64,000 nt of DNA. Origin: Nitrospirales bacterium. Its GTDB lineage: Bacteria; Nitrospirota; Nitrospiria; Nitrospirales; UBA8639. The stretch spans positions 62,001 to 126,000 of the forward strand of contig JAJDBP010000031.1 of the NCBI GenBank assembly GCA_029261295.1, read 5' to 3'. The stretch's first letter is position 1, and every line of letters starts with the position of its first letter. Below the pieces are notes generated by a model, which did no database searches, was not told where the DNA came from, and saw only the letters and a list, made by a program, of their open reading frames with translations. Position numbers and translations under genes: made by a program. Positions 11,391-63,395 of the stretch are shown piece after piece.

Positions 11391-11901
11391 AGAAACTTGG
11401 GAAGTTGGAGAGACAGATCGCCTAGAAGAAGTTTTGGCGGATTTAAGTGATCGGGCGCAGGCTAAAGGACGGTTGGTGACCCAACTGATTATTGGTGATC
11501 ATCCCATGACCGACCTGGAGTTGGTGCCTCCTACCTTGGCTAAAGTTGCCAGCACGTTTGGAAAGATTTCGGCCAAAAGTGAACGAATGGACAGTATTAT
11601 CCAAAATTCTGGAGAAACGGCCAAGAAGTTTGGACAGCAGATACGTGAAAATGCCCAACAATTAGTCGAAGATTTTCGGCAGGGAAAAAGTGGGATGCGA
11701 CAGTTAGATCAATGGTTTGGGCAAATTGCTGATTACCTGGAATGGGATCAAATTCATCAATCGGTTGGTCCCCCGCAATCAAGAGAGACAGAGGATCTGC
11801 CCTTTTGGGTGAATGAACTCATGAATGCTAGGCAGAGTTTGGATGAGGTGCGGGTGACAGACATGTTGGAGTATGAGGTAATTCCACGTCTGCCGCAATA
11901 A
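11371..11901 (+). CDS. Conserved-looking hypothetical protein of the flagellin-modification block
   Basis: I do not recognise this 176-residue protein. The start is the ATG at 11371, preceded by AAGGAG about 9 nt upstream; it overlaps the end of the GT9 gene by 20 bp, so co-translation is likely. It is acidic and mostly helical, with heptad-like stretches around residues 70-120. No signal peptide, membrane segment or cysteine is visible. The start MLVQLDEETWEVGETDRLEEVL looks like a small beta-hairpin followed by a helix. It is the last gene before the flagellin promoter and probably serves flagellar assembly or modification, perhaps as an adaptor or chaperone. That is a guess from position only. 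Confidence 0.6.
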   Translation: MLVQLDEETWEVGETDRLEEVLADLSDRAQAKGRLVTQLIIGDHPMTDLELVPPTLAKVASTFGKISAKSERMDSIIQNSGETAKKFGQQIRENAQQLVEDFRQGKSGMRQLDQWFGQIADYLEWDQIHQSVGPPQSRETEDLPFWVNELMNARQSLDEVRVTDMLEYEVIPRLPQ

Positions 11902-11924
11902 ATACAGGTCAGATCCGAATCTTT

Positions 11925-11945
11925 AATCCGCAGGATTTTCTTTTT
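11925..11945 (+). terminator. Weak intrinsic terminator candidate
   Basis: A 5-bp stem (AATCC-gca-GGATT, 11925-11937) is followed by TTCTTTTT. It sits 24 nt after the stop of the preceding gene and upstream of the sigma-28 promoter, where a terminator would be expected. The stem is short, so confidence is low. Confidence 0.35.
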
Positions 11946-12003
11946 GGTTTTGTGGGGTTTTGCACAGTATGGAAAAGCCAAGATTTTTTTGTTAATGAAT
12001 TTC

Positions 12004-12030
12004 TCAAGTTTCACTTTTGATGGACGATAA
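12004..12030 (+). promoter_or_regulatory. Sigma-28 (FliA) promoter of the flagellin operon
   Basis: TCAAGTTT (12004-12011), an exact 11-nt spacer, then GACGATAA (12023-12030) match the enterobacterial FliA consensus TAAAGTTT-N11-GCCGATAA at 14 of 16 positions. Transcription would start near 12037, leaving a ~110-nt leader before flagellin. This places fliC, and probably flaG-fliD-fliS-fliT, in the late class of flagellar genes. Confidence 0.82.
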
Positions 12031-12148
12031 GTAGGCCAGACAAAAAAATTGGTTAGTTTACCAATCTCTATGGAGGCCAGTCGGCTTATTTAACTTTCTC
12101 TCCCTTAAAGGACGGATCCTTTGAGGAGCAGCCATCAAGGAGGAATCT

Positions 12149-12988
12149 ATGGCACTTATCGTTAACAACAACATCTCATCACTGATTGCCCAGCGCAATT
12201 TAAACCTGAATCAAAACGAGTTGCAGGGGTCAGTTTCTCGTCTCTCCTCTGGACTACGAATCACGCGAGCTGCGGATGATGCGGCTGGTCTCGGTATTTC
12301 CGAAGTCTTACGGGCTCAAGTCCGTAGTATCAGCCAAGCCGTTCGGAATGCCAACGACGGAATCAGTTTATTACAGATTGCTGATGGTGGCGCGGCCAAT
12401 ATCGGAAACCTCTTAGGCCGCCTTCGAGAGTTAGCTGAACAATCAGCCAGTGGCATTTTAGGATCCAACGAGCGCTCATTCTTGGATCAAGAATTCTTGG
12501 CTCTTCGTTCTGAAATTGATCGTATCTCCAATGTGACGGAATTTAACGGAGTGAAGTTGCTGAGTGGGACAGGCGGGCTTACGGCGAATGAATCCCTGTC
12601 CATTCAAATTGGGTTCCGTAGTTCAGCCAATGATACGCTGGCAATTGGTCTGAACGATTTAAATCGACAGGCATTGGGGTTGACGACGACCAACGTTTCA
12701 ACTGCCCAGGCGGCATTAGCGGCTCTGTCCAATATTGATAGTGCCATCAGTGCGACAGCTGCTGCCCGAGCCAATATCGGGTCCTTACAAAATCGAATTG
12801 ATGCGGCTGTCCAAAACCTGGAAGTCGCGAATGAAAATCTTTCGGCGGCGGAATCACGAATTCGTGATGCTGATATAGCCTTTGAAACGTCGAAATTTGT
12901 CAGAAACCAAATTTTAGTACAGGCCGGCGTATCGGTTCTGTCGCAGGCCAATACTTTACCTCAAGCAGCGTTGTCTTTGCTGCAGTAA
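12149..12988 (+). CDS. fliC: Flagellin
   Basis: This is the filament subunit, exported by the flagellar type III system. The 279-residue protein is a short flagellin: it has the conserved N-terminal D0/D1 domain (NNNISSLIAQRNL, RLSSGLRI.RAADDAAGLGISE, N-DGISLLQ) and the C-terminal D1/D0 domain (GSLQNRID, ENLSAAESRIRDADIA, QANTLPQAALSLLQ). Only ~80 residues of central variable region remain, so the filament surface is minimal. A full AAGGAGG Shine-Dalgarno (12137-12143) lies 5 nt before the ATG. Expression is set by the sigma-28 promoter upstream. Surface Ser/Thr residues in the central part are plausible sites for the nearby glycosylation enzymes. Confidence 0.97.
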   Translation: MALIVNNNISSLIAQRNLNLNQNELQGSVSRLSSGLRITRAADDAAGLGISEVLRAQVRSISQAVRNANDGISLLQIADGGAANIGNLLGRLRELAEQSASGILGSNERSFLDQEFLALRSEIDRISNVTEFNGVKLLSGTGGLTANESLSIQIGFRSSANDTLAIGLNDLNRQALGLTTTNVSTAQAALAALSNIDSAISATAAARANIGSLQNRIDAAVQNLEVANENLSAAESRIRDADIAFETSKFVRNQILVQAGVSVLSQANTLPQAALSLLQ

Positions 12989-12996
12989 AGCAAAAC

Positions 12997-13042
12997 AATT
13001 AGGGAAGAGGCTAGGCCTTAGACCTGGCCTCTTCCCCTAATT
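12997..13042 (+). promoter_or_regulatory. Long hairpin between flagellin and flaG
   Basis: The arms at 12997-13011 and 13027-13042 pair over 15 bp with a single bulged base. The stem continues inward through TAGG/CCTG around a 7-nt loop (CCTTAGA). No T-run follows on the + strand; the flaG ribosome-binding site (AAAGGAAG, 13043-13050) abuts it directly. It is more likely an mRNA 3'-stabiliser or attenuator that lowers downstream expression relative to flagellin than a classical terminator. Confidence 0.7.
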
Positions 13043-13055
13043 AAAGGAAGTCATC

Positions 13056-13454
13056 ATGATTTCTACCATTTCTCAAAATTCTTCCATCATCGCGCTCTCG
13101 GTTGGAAATGAAATTCGGGTGCGAGATAGTCAAAATCCTAGAGAGATTGGAGCTACCGACCCCCCCCAAAAAAAGGGTACGGAGCCAAAAGAGGTCGGCA
13201 GTTTTGAAGGATCTCAAAACCCAAGGTCTACTTCTGGAAATATTGAAGCAGTTGTAAGCAGGTTGGAAGAAACCTTGCGGCATGTTGAGCCACGTATTGA
13301 ATTGACTGTAGATAAGGATCTGAATCAAGTTATTTTTCGTGTATTTGATAAAGGTTCTGGTGAATTGATCCGACAAATACCTTCTGAAGAAGTTTTGAAG
13401 CTTGAGCGTTTTCTTGCTGATCAGTCTGGTTTGTTTTTGGAAGAGAAAATTTAA
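13056..13454 (+). CDS. flaG: FlaG-family flagellar protein
   Basis: The 132-residue protein has a low-complexity, variable N-terminal half and the typical FlaG C-terminal domain from ~residue 75: LRHVEPRIELTVDKDLNQ, VIFRVFDKGSGELIRQIPSEEVLKL. The IRQIPSEE block is the FlaG hallmark. FlaG proteins influence filament length in several bacteria. The gene lies between flagellin and fliD, the usual place. A run of seven C followed by A's at 13160-13176 near the middle of the gene is a potential slippage site, but the frame is intact. Confidence 0.9.
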   Translation: MISTISQNSSIIALSVGNEIRVRDSQNPREIGATDPPQKKGTEPKEVGSFEGSQNPRSTSGNIEAVVSRLEETLRHVEPRIELTVDKDLNQVIFRVFDKGSGELIRQIPSEEVLKLERFLADQSGLFLEEKI

Positions 13455-13531
13455 GCTCTTTAGTCATTTGAATTAGTACATTTCCCTCAATACCCTCTTT
13501 TCAACGGATATTCTTTTGGGAGTGAAAACCT

Positions 13532-14923
13532 ATGATTAGTTTTGGCGGACTAGGTAATGGAATCGACTTTGGTCCAATTGTCGATTTGCTAGTCCAAGCT
13601 AGGCGAATTCCGATCGACCGGGTCAATCAACAAAAGCTTGATACTCAGGAAAAATTAACGAATTTTGGCTCGTTGGGAACTAAATTAATAGGACTCCAAA
13701 GTGCTGCCAATGGTCTCCGAACCCGTCTGAGTTTTGATAAAAACGAAGTCAGTGTTACTTCTGCCAGTTCCCAAACCTTGTTAACCGCAAGTGTGTCATC
13801 GACTGCGGCTTCAGGTTCTCATACGGTGACTGTGAATGCCTTGGCTTCAGCCCATCAAGTTGTGTCAACAGCGTCAACAGCAGTTGCCACTAAGGATACT
13901 GATATTGTTGGCGGAGCATCCGGAACCTTTTCCTTTCAATTAGGAACTGGTTCAGTTCAAACTGTGAATCTAGGTGCGACCGGGACATTAGAAGATCTAC
14001 GTGATGGCATTAATAATCTTGGCGCAGGAGTGAATGCCTCGATTCTTAATACGGGCACAGAGACCACTCCAGCGTATCGCTTGGTGTTGGCCTCCAATGA
14101 TACCGGTGCGAGTAATACCATCACCATTACTGCGGATAATACGACGTTAGATACGGTCAACACCGGCGTAGATACGTTTCAAGCTGGGCAAGATTCCGAA
14201 ATCGTATTGGGAGAAGGTGTTGGAGCCCTGACGATTAATCGATCTGGTAATACTTTGACGGACGTTATTTCTGGGTTAACGCTAAATCTTCAAGCTGATG
14301 ATGTAGGAAATCCCGTGACGATTGCGGTAACTCGTGATACCACCGCGGTGAAAGAAGGAATTTCGAGTTTTGTGAGCGCCTATAATGAAGTCGTGTCCTT
14401 TATCAAAGAACAATCAGTTTTTGATCTCGATTCAGGGGAACGAGGAGTTTTTGTTGGCGAATCGCTTACTCGAACTGTGCTTGATCGAATACGACAAGCA
14501 GCCTTTTCACAAATTAGTGGGTTAACCACGTTCACTGGGGCGTCTCAAATTGGCTTTGAAACTCAGACGACTGATGGCTCGATTAAACTCAACGAGGAAA
14601 CCCTTGATGCAGCCCTGAGTAACAATTATACCGCCGTTCGTGATTTGTTTATTCAAAATGCGACAACAGGGACCGATGGAATCGCTGAACTGGTGGTGGA
14701 TGCGGTGGATACATTGGATGATGTGCAATCAGGTGCTTTAGCCATTAAGCAGAAAGCCCTGACCAATCTCATTGATGATTTCGAAGATCAGATTCTCTTT
14801 AAGGAATCAGCCCTCATTCAGTATGAAGAACAACAACGGTTGAAGTTCGCTAATTTAGATGGGTTGTTAGCGAGCCTTGAAAGTCAACTTGATGCCTTAA
14901 CGGCCTTGTCACCGACTCAATAA
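13532..14923 (+). CDS. fliD: Flagellar filament cap protein FliD (HAP2)
   Basis: FliD forms the oligomeric cap at the filament tip that inserts new flagellin. The 463-residue product has the FliD N-terminal domain (FGGLGNGIDFGPIVDLLVQARRIPIDRVNQQK, with the characteristic short-repeat start) and the FliD C-terminal domain (SGLTLNLQADDVGNPVTIAV, ISSFVSAYNEVVSFIKEQS, GIAELVVDAVDTL). A helical coiled-coil end (ALIQYEEQQRLKFANLDGLL) is also typical. Length is normal for the family. It sits 77 bp after flaG and 23 bp before fliS. Confidence 0.95.
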   Translation: MISFGGLGNGIDFGPIVDLLVQARRIPIDRVNQQKLDTQEKLTNFGSLGTKLIGLQSAANGLRTRLSFDKNEVSVTSASSQTLLTASVSSTAASGSHTVTVNALASAHQVVSTASTAVATKDTDIVGGASGTFSFQLGTGSVQTVNLGATGTLEDLRDGINNLGAGVNASILNTGTETTPAYRLVLASNDTGASNTITITADNTTLDTVNTGVDTFQAGQDSEIVLGEGVGALTINRSGNTLTDVISGLTLNLQADDVGNPVTIAVTRDTTAVKEGISSFVSAYNEVVSFIKEQSVFDLDSGERGVFVGESLTRTVLDRIRQAAFSQISGLTTFTGASQIGFETQTTDGSIKLNEETLDAALSNNYTAVRDLFIQNATTGTDGIAELVVDAVDTLDDVQSGALAIKQKALTNLIDDFEDQILFKESALIQYEEQQRLKFANLDGLLASLESQLDALTALSPTQ

Positions 14924-48064: not shown

Positions 48065-48373
48065 TTATAATAAATATGACAAAAACCATTCAGAGATTAT
48101 ATTTCCTGAAGATTTCTCAGCTTGGATTGAGAGAAGGTCCTGGTTTTCGGCTTGGTGATATATAGCTCTGGCCAAAGCATATGATTCTTTAACTGTTCTC
48201 TGACTCACTTCCCGATTCATTCCATCCACTAAGTATTCCATTCGCAGGGGGAGAGGGGCCAATGCTGCTGCAATATCTGGCAGATCGGCTATTCTTAATA
48301 ATCCGCGAATGATTGAATCTGCTGGTTGGTACAAACGCACATCATATTTGATGGTTGTATGGTACTTCTCCAA
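48065..48373 (-). pseudogene. Remnant: C-terminal end of an alpha/beta-hydrolase gene
   Basis: The ~100-residue frame matches the C-terminal ~90 residues of the full-length hydrolase at 57097-59355 across YQP-DSIIRGLLRIADLPD, A-ALAP-PLR-E-LVDG-NR--S and IQAE--SG. It has no proper start: the first frame codon is a TTG, after a stop codon upstream in the same frame. None of the hydrolase catalytic blocks are present. It is thus the 3' fragment of a second copy, in the same orientation as the intact gene, with the giant secreted protein between them. A functional small protein is possible but unlikely. Confidence 0.75.
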
Positions 48374-57096: not shown

Positions 57097-59355
57097 TTAT
57101 ATATGTGCCATGAACCATTTTGCGATATCCTCACCAGAAGCGTTTTCAGCCTGGATGGTTAATCTATGAGATTGGTTCATTTGAGCATAGGCCGCTCGGG
57201 CTCTGTTGTAGGTCTCTTCAGCTCGCTTGCGGCTGATCTGCCGATTGCACCCATCCACTAGTCCTTCTATTCGTAGGGGACGAGGAGCCAACGCCTCGGC
57301 CATATCAGGTAAATCGGCGATTCTTAACAATCCTCGAATGATTGAATCCACTGGCTGATAGACAAATGGTTCATCTAGCATTGCCTCATAACTTAGAAGA
57401 CTTCCCTGTATATACACGGCCCGGATGTCTGGTTCGTACAGCGCGGCAAAGAGAGTGGCCACTCCAGCTAACGGTTCTCCTCGCTCTGGATAGTGAGTGG
57501 CATCTAACGGGACGGCGAGTTTCTTCCCATGTGGGTTGGGTGCCGCAAGAGAATCAGCCCAAAGACCTATTCGATTTTCATCGATTTCTTTTCGATTACG
57601 GAGATGGTCTATGACGGTTCGTAGATCGCGCACGCGAGAACTGAGCAAGCTTTCCCCAAGCATGAGACTTGTGGTAGTGACACCGGCGCTCGGACTGAGT
57701 CTGCCTCTGTACACTTCGCCATGTCGCCCATCGCCGATCCCTCGCATTTCCACTAAACAGACGGCTATCTTTTGACCCAACAGACTCTGGATCATTGGCA
57801 GACGTTCTTTCTTGAGTCTGAGATTCCCCTCCTGCGTCACACCAATCACTATTGGTGGTTTCGTTTTGCCCAAACGAGACGGCCATAGAATTTGAAAGCG
57901 GACGAAAAGGTTTTCTTCGACTTCCAAGACTACATAGCCCGATTTTCCAAAACCTCGACGCGTTGATTGCACTCGATAGGATGGGAAGGGCGTTATGGGT
58001 CTCAGAATCTCGGTGAGTTCTTGTTGCAACTGTCCCGCCTGTGTGCCTTGCTCTTCCGCTTCTCGCAGAATACGACGAGTGGTGAGGTGTTTTTGGGCCA
58101 TGTCTGGTGTGATTTGATGAACCCGGTGCGGGCTGAATGTTTTGCGTGCCTCCTTGGTCAAACATTCCAGCTTTGCCTTTTGAACCGGTTCGGTCACTTC
58201 TTGTTCAGGAACAGGAATATCAAACCATTCTTGCAATATGGGATAGAGCTGCTTGCGATGGATGGGACCGACATTGGTGCAATGGGAATCCAGGGGACCA
58301 TGCCGCGATATTCGGCCGGACCCGTGTACTGAGTGGAGCGCATCGCGTTGGCCATAGAGCTCATAGACTTTTTCAAGATATTTCCAAGTCATATCATGCT
58401 GAGGATCCCAAGAAAATTCTCGTCCATAGACCAATCGGCGTGGGGCAATCGAGCAAAGAATGACCCATGGCCAGAATCCCAATCGAGCCGTATCCGGAAG
58501 ACTTCTTGTTGAGTCCCACTCACCCATCGAGAGAGGCCCGAAGTTAAATGCGACCACTGCTGTCACACGCTCATCCAATGCACCAACGACTGCTGCTAAA
58601 TCTCCTCCCCCTGCCACTGCCCCGATGACGATGATTCGGTCACGATCAACTTGGGGATTCGCCCATAACCAATCAATGCCACGCCTCACATCTTGAACCA
58701 TCCATCCCATTAAGCTTTCGCCGATCAGATCCAATTGCATGCCCAGCACATGTCGGAAGTAATAGTCTTGCCGGTCAAGACGAAATGAATCGTTGTAGTT
58801 CGCTGGTGAGGCGAAGGGATGTTGCCGTCGTTCACCATGCCCTAGTAAATCCATAATGAGGACTGCGCAACCTTGTTGAGCCCACGTCATCCCCATGCAT
58901 TGTAATTCTTCTTGAGTTTTGGGCTCGTGATGACTGTGACAAATGATAATCGCTGGCGTTTTCTGAGAGCTTAGGGTTGGACGATAGAGGTTCGCTGTCA
59001 CGGGTACATCCCTGTGACCCTGGTAGACGATATTTTCAATGCGGTATCGATCTCGTTCTACTGTACCACTGACAACCGAGTTCGGGGTTTCCAAATTCGT
59101 CACATTGTTGGTGAGGGAAAGACGGAGTGCTGCCATGCGTTCCTCACAGAAAGTCTCCCACTCGGCTTTTGTGCTTATGCCATCTAAAAGGGATATATCC
59201 TTTTCTGCTGCTTCTTGTAGTTGTGTTGAGAGATGATCGCCAAGCTCTCGAATCCGTCGATTGCCGAATGCTACTTTTCGTGCCCATAGCCATTGGCGAA
59301 CCTGTGAAGGGAGTAGTGCTTTCACCAAACTTTTGATTGGCATATGGCTAGCCAT
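57097..59355 (-). CDS. Double alpha/beta-hydrolase-domain protein (acetyl-xylan-esterase/dienelactone-hydrolase-like)
   Basis: The ~752-residue product holds two hydrolase-like domains. The first (~105-370) has PAIIICHSHHEPK, LIMDLLGHGERR and VIGAVAGGGDLAAV, where the usual nucleophile Ser of GASGGG is Ala. The second (~480-700) has VEMRGIGDGRHGEVYRG and IGLWADSLAAPN, with a Ser in a non-canonical A-D-S-L-A. A C-terminal segment (YQPVDSIIRGLLRIADLPDMAEALAPRPL) is duplicated as a remnant at 48065. No signal peptide is evident. ATG 59355 is my choice; TTG 59370 is in frame. Related enzymes deacetylate or hydrolyse sugars and esters, but the missing Ser makes activity of domain one doubtful. Confidence 0.8.
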   Translation of the reverse strand: MASHMPIKSLVKALLPSQVRQWLWARKVAFGNRRIRELGDHLSTQLQEAAEKDISLLDGISTKAEWETFCEERMAALRLSLTNNVTNLETPNSVVSGTVERDRYRIENIVYQGHRDVPVTANLYRPTLSSQKTPAIIICHSHHEPKTQEELQCMGMTWAQQGCAVLIMDLLGHGERRQHPFASPANYNDSFRLDRQDYYFRHVLGMQLDLIGESLMGWMVQDVRRGIDWLWANPQVDRDRIIVIGAVAGGGDLAAVVGALDERVTAVVAFNFGPLSMGEWDSTRSLPDTARLGFWPWVILCSIAPRRLVYGREFSWDPQHDMTWKYLEKVYELYGQRDALHSVHGSGRISRHGPLDSHCTNVGPIHRKQLYPILQEWFDIPVPEQEVTEPVQKAKLECLTKEARKTFSPHRVHQITPDMAQKHLTTRRILREAEEQGTQAGQLQQELTEILRPITPFPSYRVQSTRRGFGKSGYVVLEVEENLFVRFQILWPSRLGKTKPPIVIGVTQEGNLRLKKERLPMIQSLLGQKIAVCLVEMRGIGDGRHGEVYRGRLSPSAGVTTTSLMLGESLLSSRVRDLRTVIDHLRNRKEIDENRIGLWADSLAAPNPHGKKLAVPLDATHYPERGEPLAGVATLFAALYEPDIRAVYIQGSLLSYEAMLDEPFVYQPVDSIIRGLLRIADLPDMAEALAPRPLRIEGLVDGCNRQISRKRAEETYNRARAAYAQMNQSHRLTIQAENASGEDIAKWFMAHI

Positions 59356-59370
59356 GACCTCCGAACTCAA

Positions 59371-59844
59371 TGAGGGAACGAGACAAGACGAGCTTAGCAG
59401 ATTGCTAAGAGCTGTGAAGTGCCGACGTGCGCGTGAAATGTTCTATCAAAAGCTGGAAACACGGGAAGAACTTTACCTACTATGGGTTTTCCCTTATTGG
59501 CTAGTTGTGCTGAAAAACTCGGGTATTTCTCTCAGGTAGATGTTTTTTTCATGTATACAAATGGATAAAAAGTGTATCACTTTAGATATAGTTTTCTATT
59601 CACTCTCTGCTTTGATTAAGAGAGATCTCTCTTAAGTTTCTGTGTAATTTCAACGTCTTCCCTTGTGTGAAGCTGTTCCTTTTTTTTTACAGAAAAAATG
59701 GCACAAACACTGCTTTCTCAGCAGAGGTGGAGTCGTAGTTCAGATGGCGACCTTTTCCTTCTTTCAAAATAGGCCACGACGGAAGTTGGAAAAGAAGGTA
59801 AGGGGAAGAATGCCAAACATTTTTTCTTTGGAAAGGAGTCAATC
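59371..59844. other. 474-bp intergenic region with palindromes
   Basis: This divergent gap between hydrolase and neprosin genes is AT-rich. It contains a hairpin CTTAGCA-gat-TGCTAAG (59393-59409), a 20-bp perfect palindrome (59616-59635), and a T9 run near 59674. No gene is convincing; small frames there lack ribosome-binding sites and recognisable sequence. A strong GGAAAGGAG Shine-Dalgarno appears just before 59845. Confidence 0.5.
59616..59635. promoter_or_regulatory. 20-bp perfect palindrome, operator candidate
   Basis: TTAAGAGAGATCTCTCTTAA reads the same on both strands. It lies ~210 bp before the neprosin-like gene and ~260 bp before the divergent hydrolase. With no T-run it does not look like a terminator, and its length suits a dimeric regulator. 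The chance of a hairpin with no loop is low, so an operator is the best guess. Confidence 0.45.
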
Positions 59845-61209
59845 ATGCGAAAGAGGAACAATCATGGTTTTTGCCACGTGAGGTTCGGACATCTTTTCCT
59901 AGGCAGTCTAGGGCTAGTGCTTCTGCTTGCCAGTTGTCATGGCCACGGACCTTATCCGCCCAATGGGCAGGACTCGGATCCTTATGTGGCTGACATCGGG
60001 GATCTTCCTGACTTGGATGAGCCAGGCCCACTTCGCCATTCCGCTCCACCGCAGGATCGGGTTCTCAATGAAAAAGAACGTATCCGCATGCAGGAGTATC
60101 TGACGCAATATATTGATCCCAAGGATGTCGTGTTTCATTTCACTTCCCCGGCTGGGGATGAAATTGACTGTGTGGATATCAAGAAACAGCCAGCGCTGCG
60201 AAGGCCTGATATGGTCAAGCACGTTATCGAATATAAGCCTCGCCACAATGTTCGTGAGGAAGAAATGGACAAGAATAGACAAGGAGCCGCTGAGCATCCT
60301 GATCGACTCTCCCTTGAACAGGAGTTTTCTTCAGGAGGGAAAAATTGCCCGCAGGGGTCCGTTCCGATTCGGCATCTTACCATGGACATTCTCCAAAGCT
60401 TTGAAACGTTAGAGGCTTTTTTTCATAAAACCCCACCAAAAGATGGGCCGACCAGTCTCCATCAATATGCCACTGCCCACAAATGGGTCAGCAATTGGGG
60501 TGGAGAAAGCGTGTTGAATATTTGGAAGCCCTATACCGAGCGTTCCGATGAATTTACCTTGTCTCAAATATGGGTCGTGCGAGGTTCCGGTAGCAATAAG
60601 GAAACGATAGAAGGGGGCTGGCAGAAATATCGAGATTTGTATGGGGATTGGCGTTCCAGGTTGTTTATTTATTTTACGCCTGACAACTATGGCAGCGGCG
60701 GATGTTACAATTTATCCTGTGGGGCCTTTGTTCAGGTTAATAACACTGTATACATTGGTGGAGGATTTACAAACTATAGCTCGCATGGTGGTTCTCAGCA
60801 TACCTTTAAACTTCTTTGGTATAAGGATGGGGAGTCTGGGCATTGGTGGTTACGGTATGGGAATACCTGGGTAGGGTATTATCCCCGTACGCTCTTTGAT
60901 TCCAACGGTCTGCGGAACTTTGCCTCTCGGACAAGCTTCGGGGGCGAGATCATTAACAGAAATATTAATAGCCAACATACGCGAACCGACATGGGAAGTG
61001 GATATATGCCCTCCTTTGGATACCAATGGGCCGCCTATCAACGCTCTATTCGGTATGTGGATACCAATAATTTTTATCGGCAAGCCACCGGTATGTCGAC
61101 CAATGTGAGTGATGATGACTGTTATGATATTCAGCTTAAATCAAGCAGTGGTTCCTGGGAACAATATTTTTACTTTGGCGGGTGGGGATATAATTCACAA
61201 TGTGAATAG
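59845..61209 (+). CDS. Neprosin-domain lipoprotein (putative prolyl glutamic peptidase)
   Basis: The 454-residue product has a lipoprotein signal peptide ending in LLLASC. An acidic Pro-rich linker and a neprosin activation-like segment follow (~90-135, containing IDCVDIKKQPALRRP, as in plant neprosin precursors). The neprosin domain (~200-454) contains SLHQYATAHK, SQIWVVRGSG, TIEGGWQKYRDLYGDWRSRLFIYFT, CYNLSCGAFVQVNN, WWLRYGNTWVGYYP and FGGEIIN, plus MGSGYMPSFG. The Glu in IEGGW and the Glu in GGEI match the two conserved glutamates that I believe form the catalytic pair of pitcher-plant neprosin. The family is best known from plants (DUF239). A good GGAAAGGAG Shine-Dalgarno precedes ATG 59845. 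It would sit in an outer or periplasmic membrane leaflet. Confidence 0.85.
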   Translation: MRKRNNHGFCHVRFGHLFLGSLGLVLLLASCHGHGPYPPNGQDSDPYVADIGDLPDLDEPGPLRHSAPPQDRVLNEKERIRMQEYLTQYIDPKDVVFHFTSPAGDEIDCVDIKKQPALRRPDMVKHVIEYKPRHNVREEEMDKNRQGAAEHPDRLSLEQEFSSGGKNCPQGSVPIRHLTMDILQSFETLEAFFHKTPPKDGPTSLHQYATAHKWVSNWGGESVLNIWKPYTERSDEFTLSQIWVVRGSGSNKETIEGGWQKYRDLYGDWRSRLFIYFTPDNYGSGGCYNLSCGAFVQVNNTVYIGGGFTNYSSHGGSQHTFKLLWYKDGESGHWWLRYGNTWVGYYPRTLFDSNGLRNFASRTSFGGEIINRNINSQHTRTDMGSGYMPSFGYQWAAYQRSIRYVDTNNFYRQATGMSTNVSDDDCYDIQLKSSSGSWEQYFYFGGWGYNSQCE

Positions 61210-61688: not shown

Positions 61689-63395
61689 TTAGGCGGTTTT
61701 GGGAGGGATGTCTCGGCCGAGGAATTGTTCGCCGATGTAATCAATGCCTTCATTGAGGGCGGCTTCGAAATTTTCTACGAAATTTTCTTCCCCGATATGT
61801 TCCATCACGCTTAGCTCCTTGAGGGTCCGACGGACGGCGGGGTTCATTCCTTTAATCAGGACTTTGGTGCCATTCTTTTGCGCGTGGTGGGCCATGTCTT
61901 CCAGGGCGAAGGCTCCTGACAGATCGACCATAGGCACATGGATAAGCGAAATAATAAGGACCTGGTAATCAGTGAGCTTATCCACCTGGCGGTAGAGGGT
62001 GTCGGCAATTCCAAAAAACATGGGACCGTTAGGTTCGAGGACAGCAATTTGTTTTCGCAGATGGGCTGGAACCAGTTCAGCGCCAGATTTTTGACTTTCC
62101 TCAAGGCCGACGACTTTGGGTTTCCACATTTCGCTCATGTCCCGCACAAAGAGGAAGAAGGCGATGGCGAGTCCTACGCCAACAGCAACCAATAAGTCTT
62201 CCCATACGGTCAAAAGGAATACCGTCCAAAAAGTAATTTTTGATGGGGTGGGGATGCGATGCAGAATGGGGAAGACTCGGAAGTCTAAGATGTCGTACCC
62301 AACTTTAAAAAGGATGGCTGCGAGGCAACCCATAGGAATATACGAGGCTAAGGGTGCTAGGCCCAGAACAAGGGCGAGGAGTACGCATCCATGGACGATG
62401 GTTGAGAGAATCGTTCGTGCTCCACATTGAATATTGGCAATGCTCCGCATGGTCGCGGTCGCAGTGGTGAGGCCTCCGATTAAGCCTGCTGCCATATTGG
62501 CTAGGCCTTGTCCCCAGATTTCTTGGTCGCTGTTATGTCGGTCATCATCGCTCATTTGGTCAATGACGACGCAGGTCAGGAGGGAGTCATAGATGGCTAA
62601 TCCAGCCAGCGCGGCCGCTGGAGGAAGCATGTCATAGAACTGGCTGATCGGGGGAAGATATAGATCAGGAAGGCCGATTGGCACTTCTGGAATGTAGTCG
62701 ATATCCAAGGCTAAGAAATTGGCGATGGCTGTGCCCACGACTAAACCTATGAGAGGGGCTGGGAGCCAGATCACTTTTGTAATCTTGGGCCAGATCAATA
62801 TTGTGCCCAAGGTGATGAGGGAAATCATGAGCGCATCAAAATGCGTGTTCATGAGGGAGCTGGGAATAGACAACAAGGCTTCACGAACTGATGAAAGGGT
62901 GGGAAGCCCGAGGAAGGGATTTAATTCGATGATAATGACGATGGCACCAATGCCACACATGAATCCGGATATGACGGAATAGGGCGTGAGGTAGATGAAT
63001 TTCCCGACGCCCATAGCTGCCAAGATGAGCATGATGACGCCGCTCAAAAATACGCATCCGAAAGCGAAGCTCAGATCTGGTTGGCCATTCGCCAACATGT
63101 GGTCGTGCATGACCACGGCAAGCTGAACGGTTTTTGGGCCTGTCGGTCCGCTAACCCCAACATTTGACCCTCCGAATAGGCCCCCAACAAATCCCCCAGC
63201 AATGGCTCCCCACATGCCGGTAATGGCTCCAAGGCCAGAAGCTACGCCAAACCCCAACGCCAGCGGCAATGCGATGAAGGCGACCGTGACCCCTGCGAGT
63301 GTGTCCTGCGCAATGTTATTTCCCATGATCCGGATTCTCGGCCACGGGTTCATTTCTGAAAGGAAACCTTTAATTTTATTGCCAATGAAGTCCAT
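61689..63395 (-). CDS. SulP-family anion transporter with STAS domain
   Basis: The 568-residue inner-membrane protein has the SulP core of ~12-14 helices (~20-420). It contains TLAGVTVAFIALPLALGFGVASG and the GLFGGSNVGVSGPTGP motif near residue 80, typical of SulP substrate sites. A C-terminal STAS domain (~450-555) includes VPMVDLSGAFALEDM, with the Ser of the DLSG loop that in anti-sigma antagonists is phosphorylated. Family members carry sulfate, bicarbonate or other anions; the specific ion cannot be told. It precedes on the same strand as the CBS-domain gene, 287 bp apart. Confidence 0.93.
   Translation of the reverse strand: MDFIGNKIKGFLSEMNPWPRIRIMGNNIAQDTLAGVTVAFIALPLALGFGVASGLGAITGMWGAIAGGFVGGLFGGSNVGVSGPTGPKTVQLAVVMHDHMLANGQPDLSFAFGCVFLSGVIMLILAAMGVGKFIYLTPYSVISGFMCGIGAIVIIIELNPFLGLPTLSSVREALLSIPSSLMNTHFDALMISLITLGTILIWPKITKVIWLPAPLIGLVVGTAIANFLALDIDYIPEVPIGLPDLYLPPISQFYDMLPPAAALAGLAIYDSLLTCVVIDQMSDDDRHNSDQEIWGQGLANMAAGLIGGLTTATATMRSIANIQCGARTILSTIVHGCVLLALVLGLAPLASYIPMGCLAAILFKVGYDILDFRVFPILHRIPTPSKITFWTVFLLTVWEDLLVAVGVGLAIAFFLFVRDMSEMWKPKVVGLEESQKSGAELVPAHLRKQIAVLEPNGPMFFGIADTLYRQVDKLTDYQVLIISLIHVPMVDLSGAFALEDMAHHAQKNGTKVLIKGMNPAVRRTLKELSVMEHIGEENFVENFEAALNEGIDYIGEQFLGRDIPPKTA

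Follow-up and report, generated by a model that had tools for sequence, protein, structure and literature searches.

The window, a 64,000-nucleotide stretch of a Nitrospirales genome (4.06 Mb; contig C25), carries a gene for a neprosin-family protein, together with a small gene for a secreted-looking protein and genes for a giant Ig/PKD-domain protein, an AXE1-like hydrolase, and a SulP-type transporter (table 1). The earlier note had delimited the same reading frame and quoted from it the motifs SQIWV, IEGGW, YGD, CYNL-CG-FVQ, GGEI, and MGSG, all of which are present. PF03080 occurs as a single copy in this genome, which lacks PF14711 (nitrate reductase beta C-terminus), a hint of nitrite oxidation whose absence, as that of a single marker, says little. 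Just before the giant Ig-domain gene, positions 48074–48337 resemble the 3′ end of the hydrolase gene (58% identity over 88 aa), either as its remnant or as a duplicate of it, which suggests insertion of the giant gene beside this end or through it.

Table 1. Genes and Predicted Features around the Neprosin Gene, in Window Coordinates.
Feature	Position	Strand	Evidence or remark
Giant Ig/PKD-domain protein, 2686 aa	48504..56564	+	Big_5, HYDIN-like Ig, PKD, Big_6; not linked to neprosin
AXE1-like alpha/beta hydrolase	57097..59370	-	PF05448 8.7e-12; not linked to neprosin
Shine-Dalgarno-like GGAAAGGAG 5′ of neprosin ATG	59830..59838	+	Inferred by reading the sequence
Neprosin-family zymogen gene, 454 aa	59845..61209	+	ATG start; Pfam, PDB, and fold match
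Signal peptide, lipobox LASC, lipid-accepting Cys31 (predicted)	59845..59937	+	Reading and regex
Neprosin activation (pro-) domain, residues 99–211	60139..60477	+	PF14365; C109–C168 = neprosin C52–C98
K195, proposed latency-plug lysine (neprosin K118)	60427..60429	+	38/38 rows and profile alignment
Catalytic beta-sandwich domain, ~residues 204–454	60454..61206	+	PF03080; mature neprosin structures Z 31.7–31.9
E256 (catalytic E188)	60610..60612	+	39/39 rows
E368 (catalytic E297)	60946..60948	+	39/39 rows
Small secreted-looking partner, 109 aa	61252..61581	+	42 nt past neprosin stop; hydrophobic N-terminal stretch
SulP sulfate-permease family transporter	61689..63395	-	PF00916 4.5e-67, STAS; conserved right flank, colinear in G007

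The assignment of the protein to the neprosin family is far above chance level. PF03080 (Neprosin) matches residues 235–446 with an E-value of 4e-60 (203.3 bits for a cutoff of 22) and PF14365 (Neprosin_AP) matches residues 99–211 with 5.9e-18 (66 bits for a cutoff of 39.2), and the order of the two, pro-domain and then catalytic domain, is that of the plant enzyme. Both domains had been proposed in the earlier note, which had made its proposal hang on PF03080, and both are borne out. A sequence search of the PDB (E ≤ 1) returned nothing besides neprosin entries, with E-values ranging from 2.8e-54 to 6.2e-43 (4e-54 for 7zu8), and an NCBIfam search gave no match, though RefSeq names relatives of the protein. 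The hydrophobic N-terminal stretch closes with the lipobox LASC at Cys31, in agreement with the lipoprotein signal previously predicted for this protein.

An AlphaFold2 model built from the window protein and 37 loci (mean pLDDT 83.2, pTM 0.81; residues 1–65 unreliable) gave a Foldseek match of 6.2e-34. The comparison with the neprosin crystal structures suggested in the earlier note points to the zymogen fold, because the model aligns with the zymogen 7zva over 323 residues, pro-domain included (Z 40.8, 2.2 Å rmsd), as well as with the mature structures (Z 31.7–31.9). The next peptidases, of the eqolisin kind, score Z ~14.

We then compared the active site by using a MAFFT alignment of 39 rows, comprising the window protein, plant neprosin, and 37 bacterial loci, and the residue roles given in PMC9343461. 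The two glutamates that had been regarded as catalytic indeed align with the pair E188/E297 in this alignment, and the register of the structural alignment agrees at its start, where model residue 204 corresponds to chain residue 132 and Y208 to Y136. Q241 (Q173) is found in all 39 rows and W243 in 33; the equivalent W175 is termed indispensable in PMC9343461. H206 (H134), Y208, T254 (T186), and Y282 (Y214) are further identities, as are F237, L239, Q260, Y262, and Y288, and the window protein matches in kind neprosin H134, Y136, F169, L171, T186, Q192, Y194, Y208, Y214, and Y220. E293, one of the three S3′ residues of neprosin, is replaced by S364. Six of the seven neprosin cysteines are retained (C109, C168, C287, C292, C426, and C453), covering all three disulfides, two of which are also given in PMC13269764. 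Judged from the pocket residues, cleavage after proline by the window enzyme is plausible.

In the plant zymogen, as described in PMC9343461, K118 forms a salt bridge with E188 and occupies the S1 site until acid frees it, and the K118A variant matures partially at neutral pH; plant neprosin is described as reversibly inactivated above pH 5. When the 38 bacterial rows were aligned without the plant protein, K195 was the sole invariant position N-terminal of the catalytic domain, and it falls on K118 in an alignment with the profile of these rows. The MAFFT alignment including the plant row misplaced the linker and set K118 on H194, one column off, and the match to K118 is taken from the profile alignment in its place. 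We read the invariance of K195 and its profile match as conservation of the plug lysine, with moderate confidence, and this lysine looks general among bacterial members.

By scanning named bacterial genomes with one peptide pattern, we identified relatives at 46 loci, in Nitrospirota, Myxococcota, Pseudomonadota, Campylobacterota, Actinomycetota, Acidobacteriota, Bacteroidota, Chlamydiota, and Chloroflexota. A paper of 2022 describes neprosin orthologues as restricted to plants, PMC4768671 mentions in passing that DUF239 is found in plant and bacterial proteins, and two Novosphingobium plasmid genes are annotated as "neprosin family prolyl endopeptidase." Given the 46 loci and these RefSeq records, the family is not confined to plants as had been printed; bacterial members are already catalogued, and the label "plant-type" under which the protein had first been described is misleading. 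Our literature search on neprosin or DUF239 in bacteria gave no title on a bacterial neprosin. Read by eye, the proteins of L018, L022, L024, L025, L028–L030, and L036, which include those of Streptomyces, Kitasatospora, Mucilaginibacter, and one Nitrospira, seemingly start without a signal peptide, although export is to be expected for this kind of zymogen.

The family is rare around the window genome: it was found in 2 of 20 genomes of the genus, 7 of 235 of the order, and 6 of a 395-genome draw across the phylum. The window protein joins that of locus L008 in the tree (support 90/86), followed by those of Myxococcaceae and of a Bacteroidetes MAG (90/91); neither of these branches is starred. 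A branch with 100/100 support splits 10 bacterial rows from 29 that include the window and plant rows; because the plant placement depends on one long-branched row (1.82), it was not used for the direction of transfer. The patchy rarity of the gene and the position of its nearest relatives beyond L008 in other phyla indicate lateral transfer, and the neprosin gene and its small partner were probably acquired together in this way.

The comparison of neighboring genes across relatives revealed no pattern common to the entire family, and what Myxococcus loci seem to share consists in part of antisense and background frames. One Pyxidicoccus neprosin (L010) is adjoined by a Met-zincin-like metallopeptidase (11428–13659; DUF4953, 6.4e-14). 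Immediately upstream of the L008 neprosin gene (genome G264, Nitrospiraceae), and on the opposite strand, the small partner has a homolog (46% over 78 aa). A protein search found the partner in 2 of the 395 phylum genomes, the window genome and G264, and a profile search of the 235 order genomes gave two strong matches, both in genomes with a window-type neprosin and adjacent to it both times, plus a weak one (1.8e-4 over 44 positions) in a genome that has no neprosin. In the remaining loci, including those of Myxococcus, Thiothrix, Campylobacteraceae, and Bacteroidetes, no significant homolog was found. The chance of hitting two given genomes of 235 is 1/27,495, and joint inheritance or transfer explains the linkage as well as function does.

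PF04355 (BamE) scores below its cutoff of 23.2 bits on both partners (13.3 and 15.2 bits; E-values 0.075 and 0.019), and a PDB search gave nine weak rows, all of them BLIP (E 0.5–0.6). BamE and BLIP form one superfamily, and BLIP is an inhibitor; the two resemblances are faint hints that the partner belongs there. Its fold model is poor (pLDDT 44.5). On the thin ground of two linked loci, we propose that the partner is a dedicated regulator of the window neprosin, possibly an inhibitor, or else a folding or activation partner.

A second type of Nitrospirales neprosin (L047–L050) keeps both glutamates and has Ala at the position of W175 and Thr or Ala at that of Y214. A small, secreted-looking, Cys-rich protein directly follows the second-type gene in L048 (11191–11556), L050, L053, and the Pseudomonadota MAG locus L049, that is, in four of five such loci, L047 being without it. 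This protein was found in 2 of the 395 phylum genomes, both with a second-type neprosin, and a Pfam search with the L048 copy gave no match. A protein of ~1186 aa, also without a Pfam match, directly follows the neprosin gene both in L025 (11180–14737; Nitrospira) and in the Pseudomonadota MAG locus L043 (51% over 752 aa). That different neprosin types have different dedicated neighbors suggests that these neighbors are regulators or substrates traveling with the peptidase.

From its sequence and predicted fold, the window protein can be read, with high probability, as a glutamic endopeptidase zymogen of the neprosin family that is exported and lipid-anchored. In the proposed mechanism, the protein would cross the inner membrane by means of its signal peptide, be acylated on Cys31, and remain latent as long as K195 is salt-bridged to E256 in the S1 site. 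Release of the linker, by acid or another trigger, would allow a second molecule to cut near P202–T203, a cut that would take the enzyme part off its lipid anchor, so that it could be released. The freed beta-sandwich would hydrolyze extended peptides, probably after proline, with a water molecule polarized between E256 and E368. The adjoining 109-aa protein would regulate the enzyme, as inhibitor or as folding or activation partner, and the patchily distributed two-gene unit would break down extracytoplasmic proteins as a nutrient source or attack neighbors. We consider this explanation as a whole, a lipid-anchored zymogen with a regulatory partner gained laterally as a unit for proteolysis outside the cytoplasm, to be likely.

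Other explanations account for part of the data. The protein might belong to a bacterial subfamily apart from the plant enzymes, as an active neprosin-fold glutamic peptidase without proline specificity or with activity at neutral pH. This scenario would fit a catalytic domain only 41% identical to that of neprosin, a window group nearer to Myxococcus and Thiothrix proteins, the replacement of E293 by Ser, and the fact that our analysis found no pointer to an acid habitat of the host; however, the residues that PMC9343461 assigns to the S1 and S3 pockets are the same in both proteins, and we regard it as rather unlikely. A member of the family that is not processed, or not catalytic, and plays a structural or signaling role in the envelope has a precedent in plant LOTR1, which, according to PMC8794472, appeared full-length and uncleaved and seems to fulfill its role unprocessed. 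Such a role is improbable for the window protein, which retains both glutamates, Gln241, Trp243, His206, Tyr208, and the plug lysine.

It had also been proposed, on the grounds that the genes adjoin, that the peptidase, the giant adhesin, and the ester hydrolase make up an island for matrix processing. The sister genomes do not support this link, and we give the proposal very little credence. In G007, both the left flank (to 47936) and the right flank (from 61691) are colinear with the window, and 1.4 kb replaces the whole 13.8-kb stretch between them. In G001, 136 bp separate the hydrolase gene from a 44-bp stretch matching the 3′ end of the SulP gene, a gap which implies that this genome lacks the 2.3 kb of neprosin and partner genes. 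The hydrolase is also present in G002. Neprosin was found in none of these three genomes, although its lack in G002 weighs less because that genome is only 66% complete. The presence of the hydrolase in relatives that lack neprosin thus speaks against the adhesin, the hydrolase, and the neprosin forming one system.

The window gene thus codes for a peptidase of a known family that is well formed and sits in a host where it was not expected; the favored reading is a lipid-anchored zymogen, whose role in the cell may be nutritional, or lie in processing the envelope or attacking competitors. New here are the apparent generality of the plug lysine in bacteria and the small dedicated neighbors of neprosins. 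For two-glutamate peptidases, neither a natural inhibitor nor a chaperone is known to us. A broader scenario, which we put forward tentatively as somewhat less probable than its negation, is that bacterial neprosins are held in check by such adjacent regulators, BamE/BLIP-like for the window type and of an unrelated Cys-rich kind for the second Nitrospirales type, and that the pH switch based on the lysine plug is an ancestral bacterial trait predating plant digestion. If the small neighbors are regulators, the control of this catalytic class opens to direct test. A broad bacterial branch that keeps the active site and the plug lysine contradicts the plant-only view and bears on the origin of the plant enzymes. 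Neprosin is under development as an oral gluten-degrading enzyme, and the bacterial proteins offer enzymes that may be easier to produce in bacteria.

Among known systems, eqolisins (scytalidoglutamic peptidase, G1; 2ifw, 2ifr) share with the window protein a beta-sandwich and a catalytic Glu (Z 13.7–13.8) but use a Glu–Gln dyad, in contrast to its Glu–Glu pair (PMC9343461). The dyad speaks against membership in this G1 family, as E256 sits where SCP-B has Gln107 (PMC9343461). The Novosphingobium plasmid proteins are distant members of the same family (32.8% identity at 83% query coverage). The closest relatives after L008 are the neprosins of Myxococcus, Pyxidicoccus, Thiothrix, Campylobacteraceae, and a Bacteroidetes MAG (L009–L016), with catalytic domains 51–67% identical to that of the window protein; a search of their loci for the small partner yielded no homolog. 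Nepenthes x ventrata neprosin (7zu8, 7zva, 7zvb, 7zvc, 9qr8; 41% identity in the catalytic domain) differs in that the window protein has a bacterial lipobox, a linked small gene, Ser in place of E293, and no counterpart of C334, whereas the two have in common their domain order, fold, glutamate pair, and active-site shell, six of seven cysteines, and, according to the profile alignment, the plug lysine.
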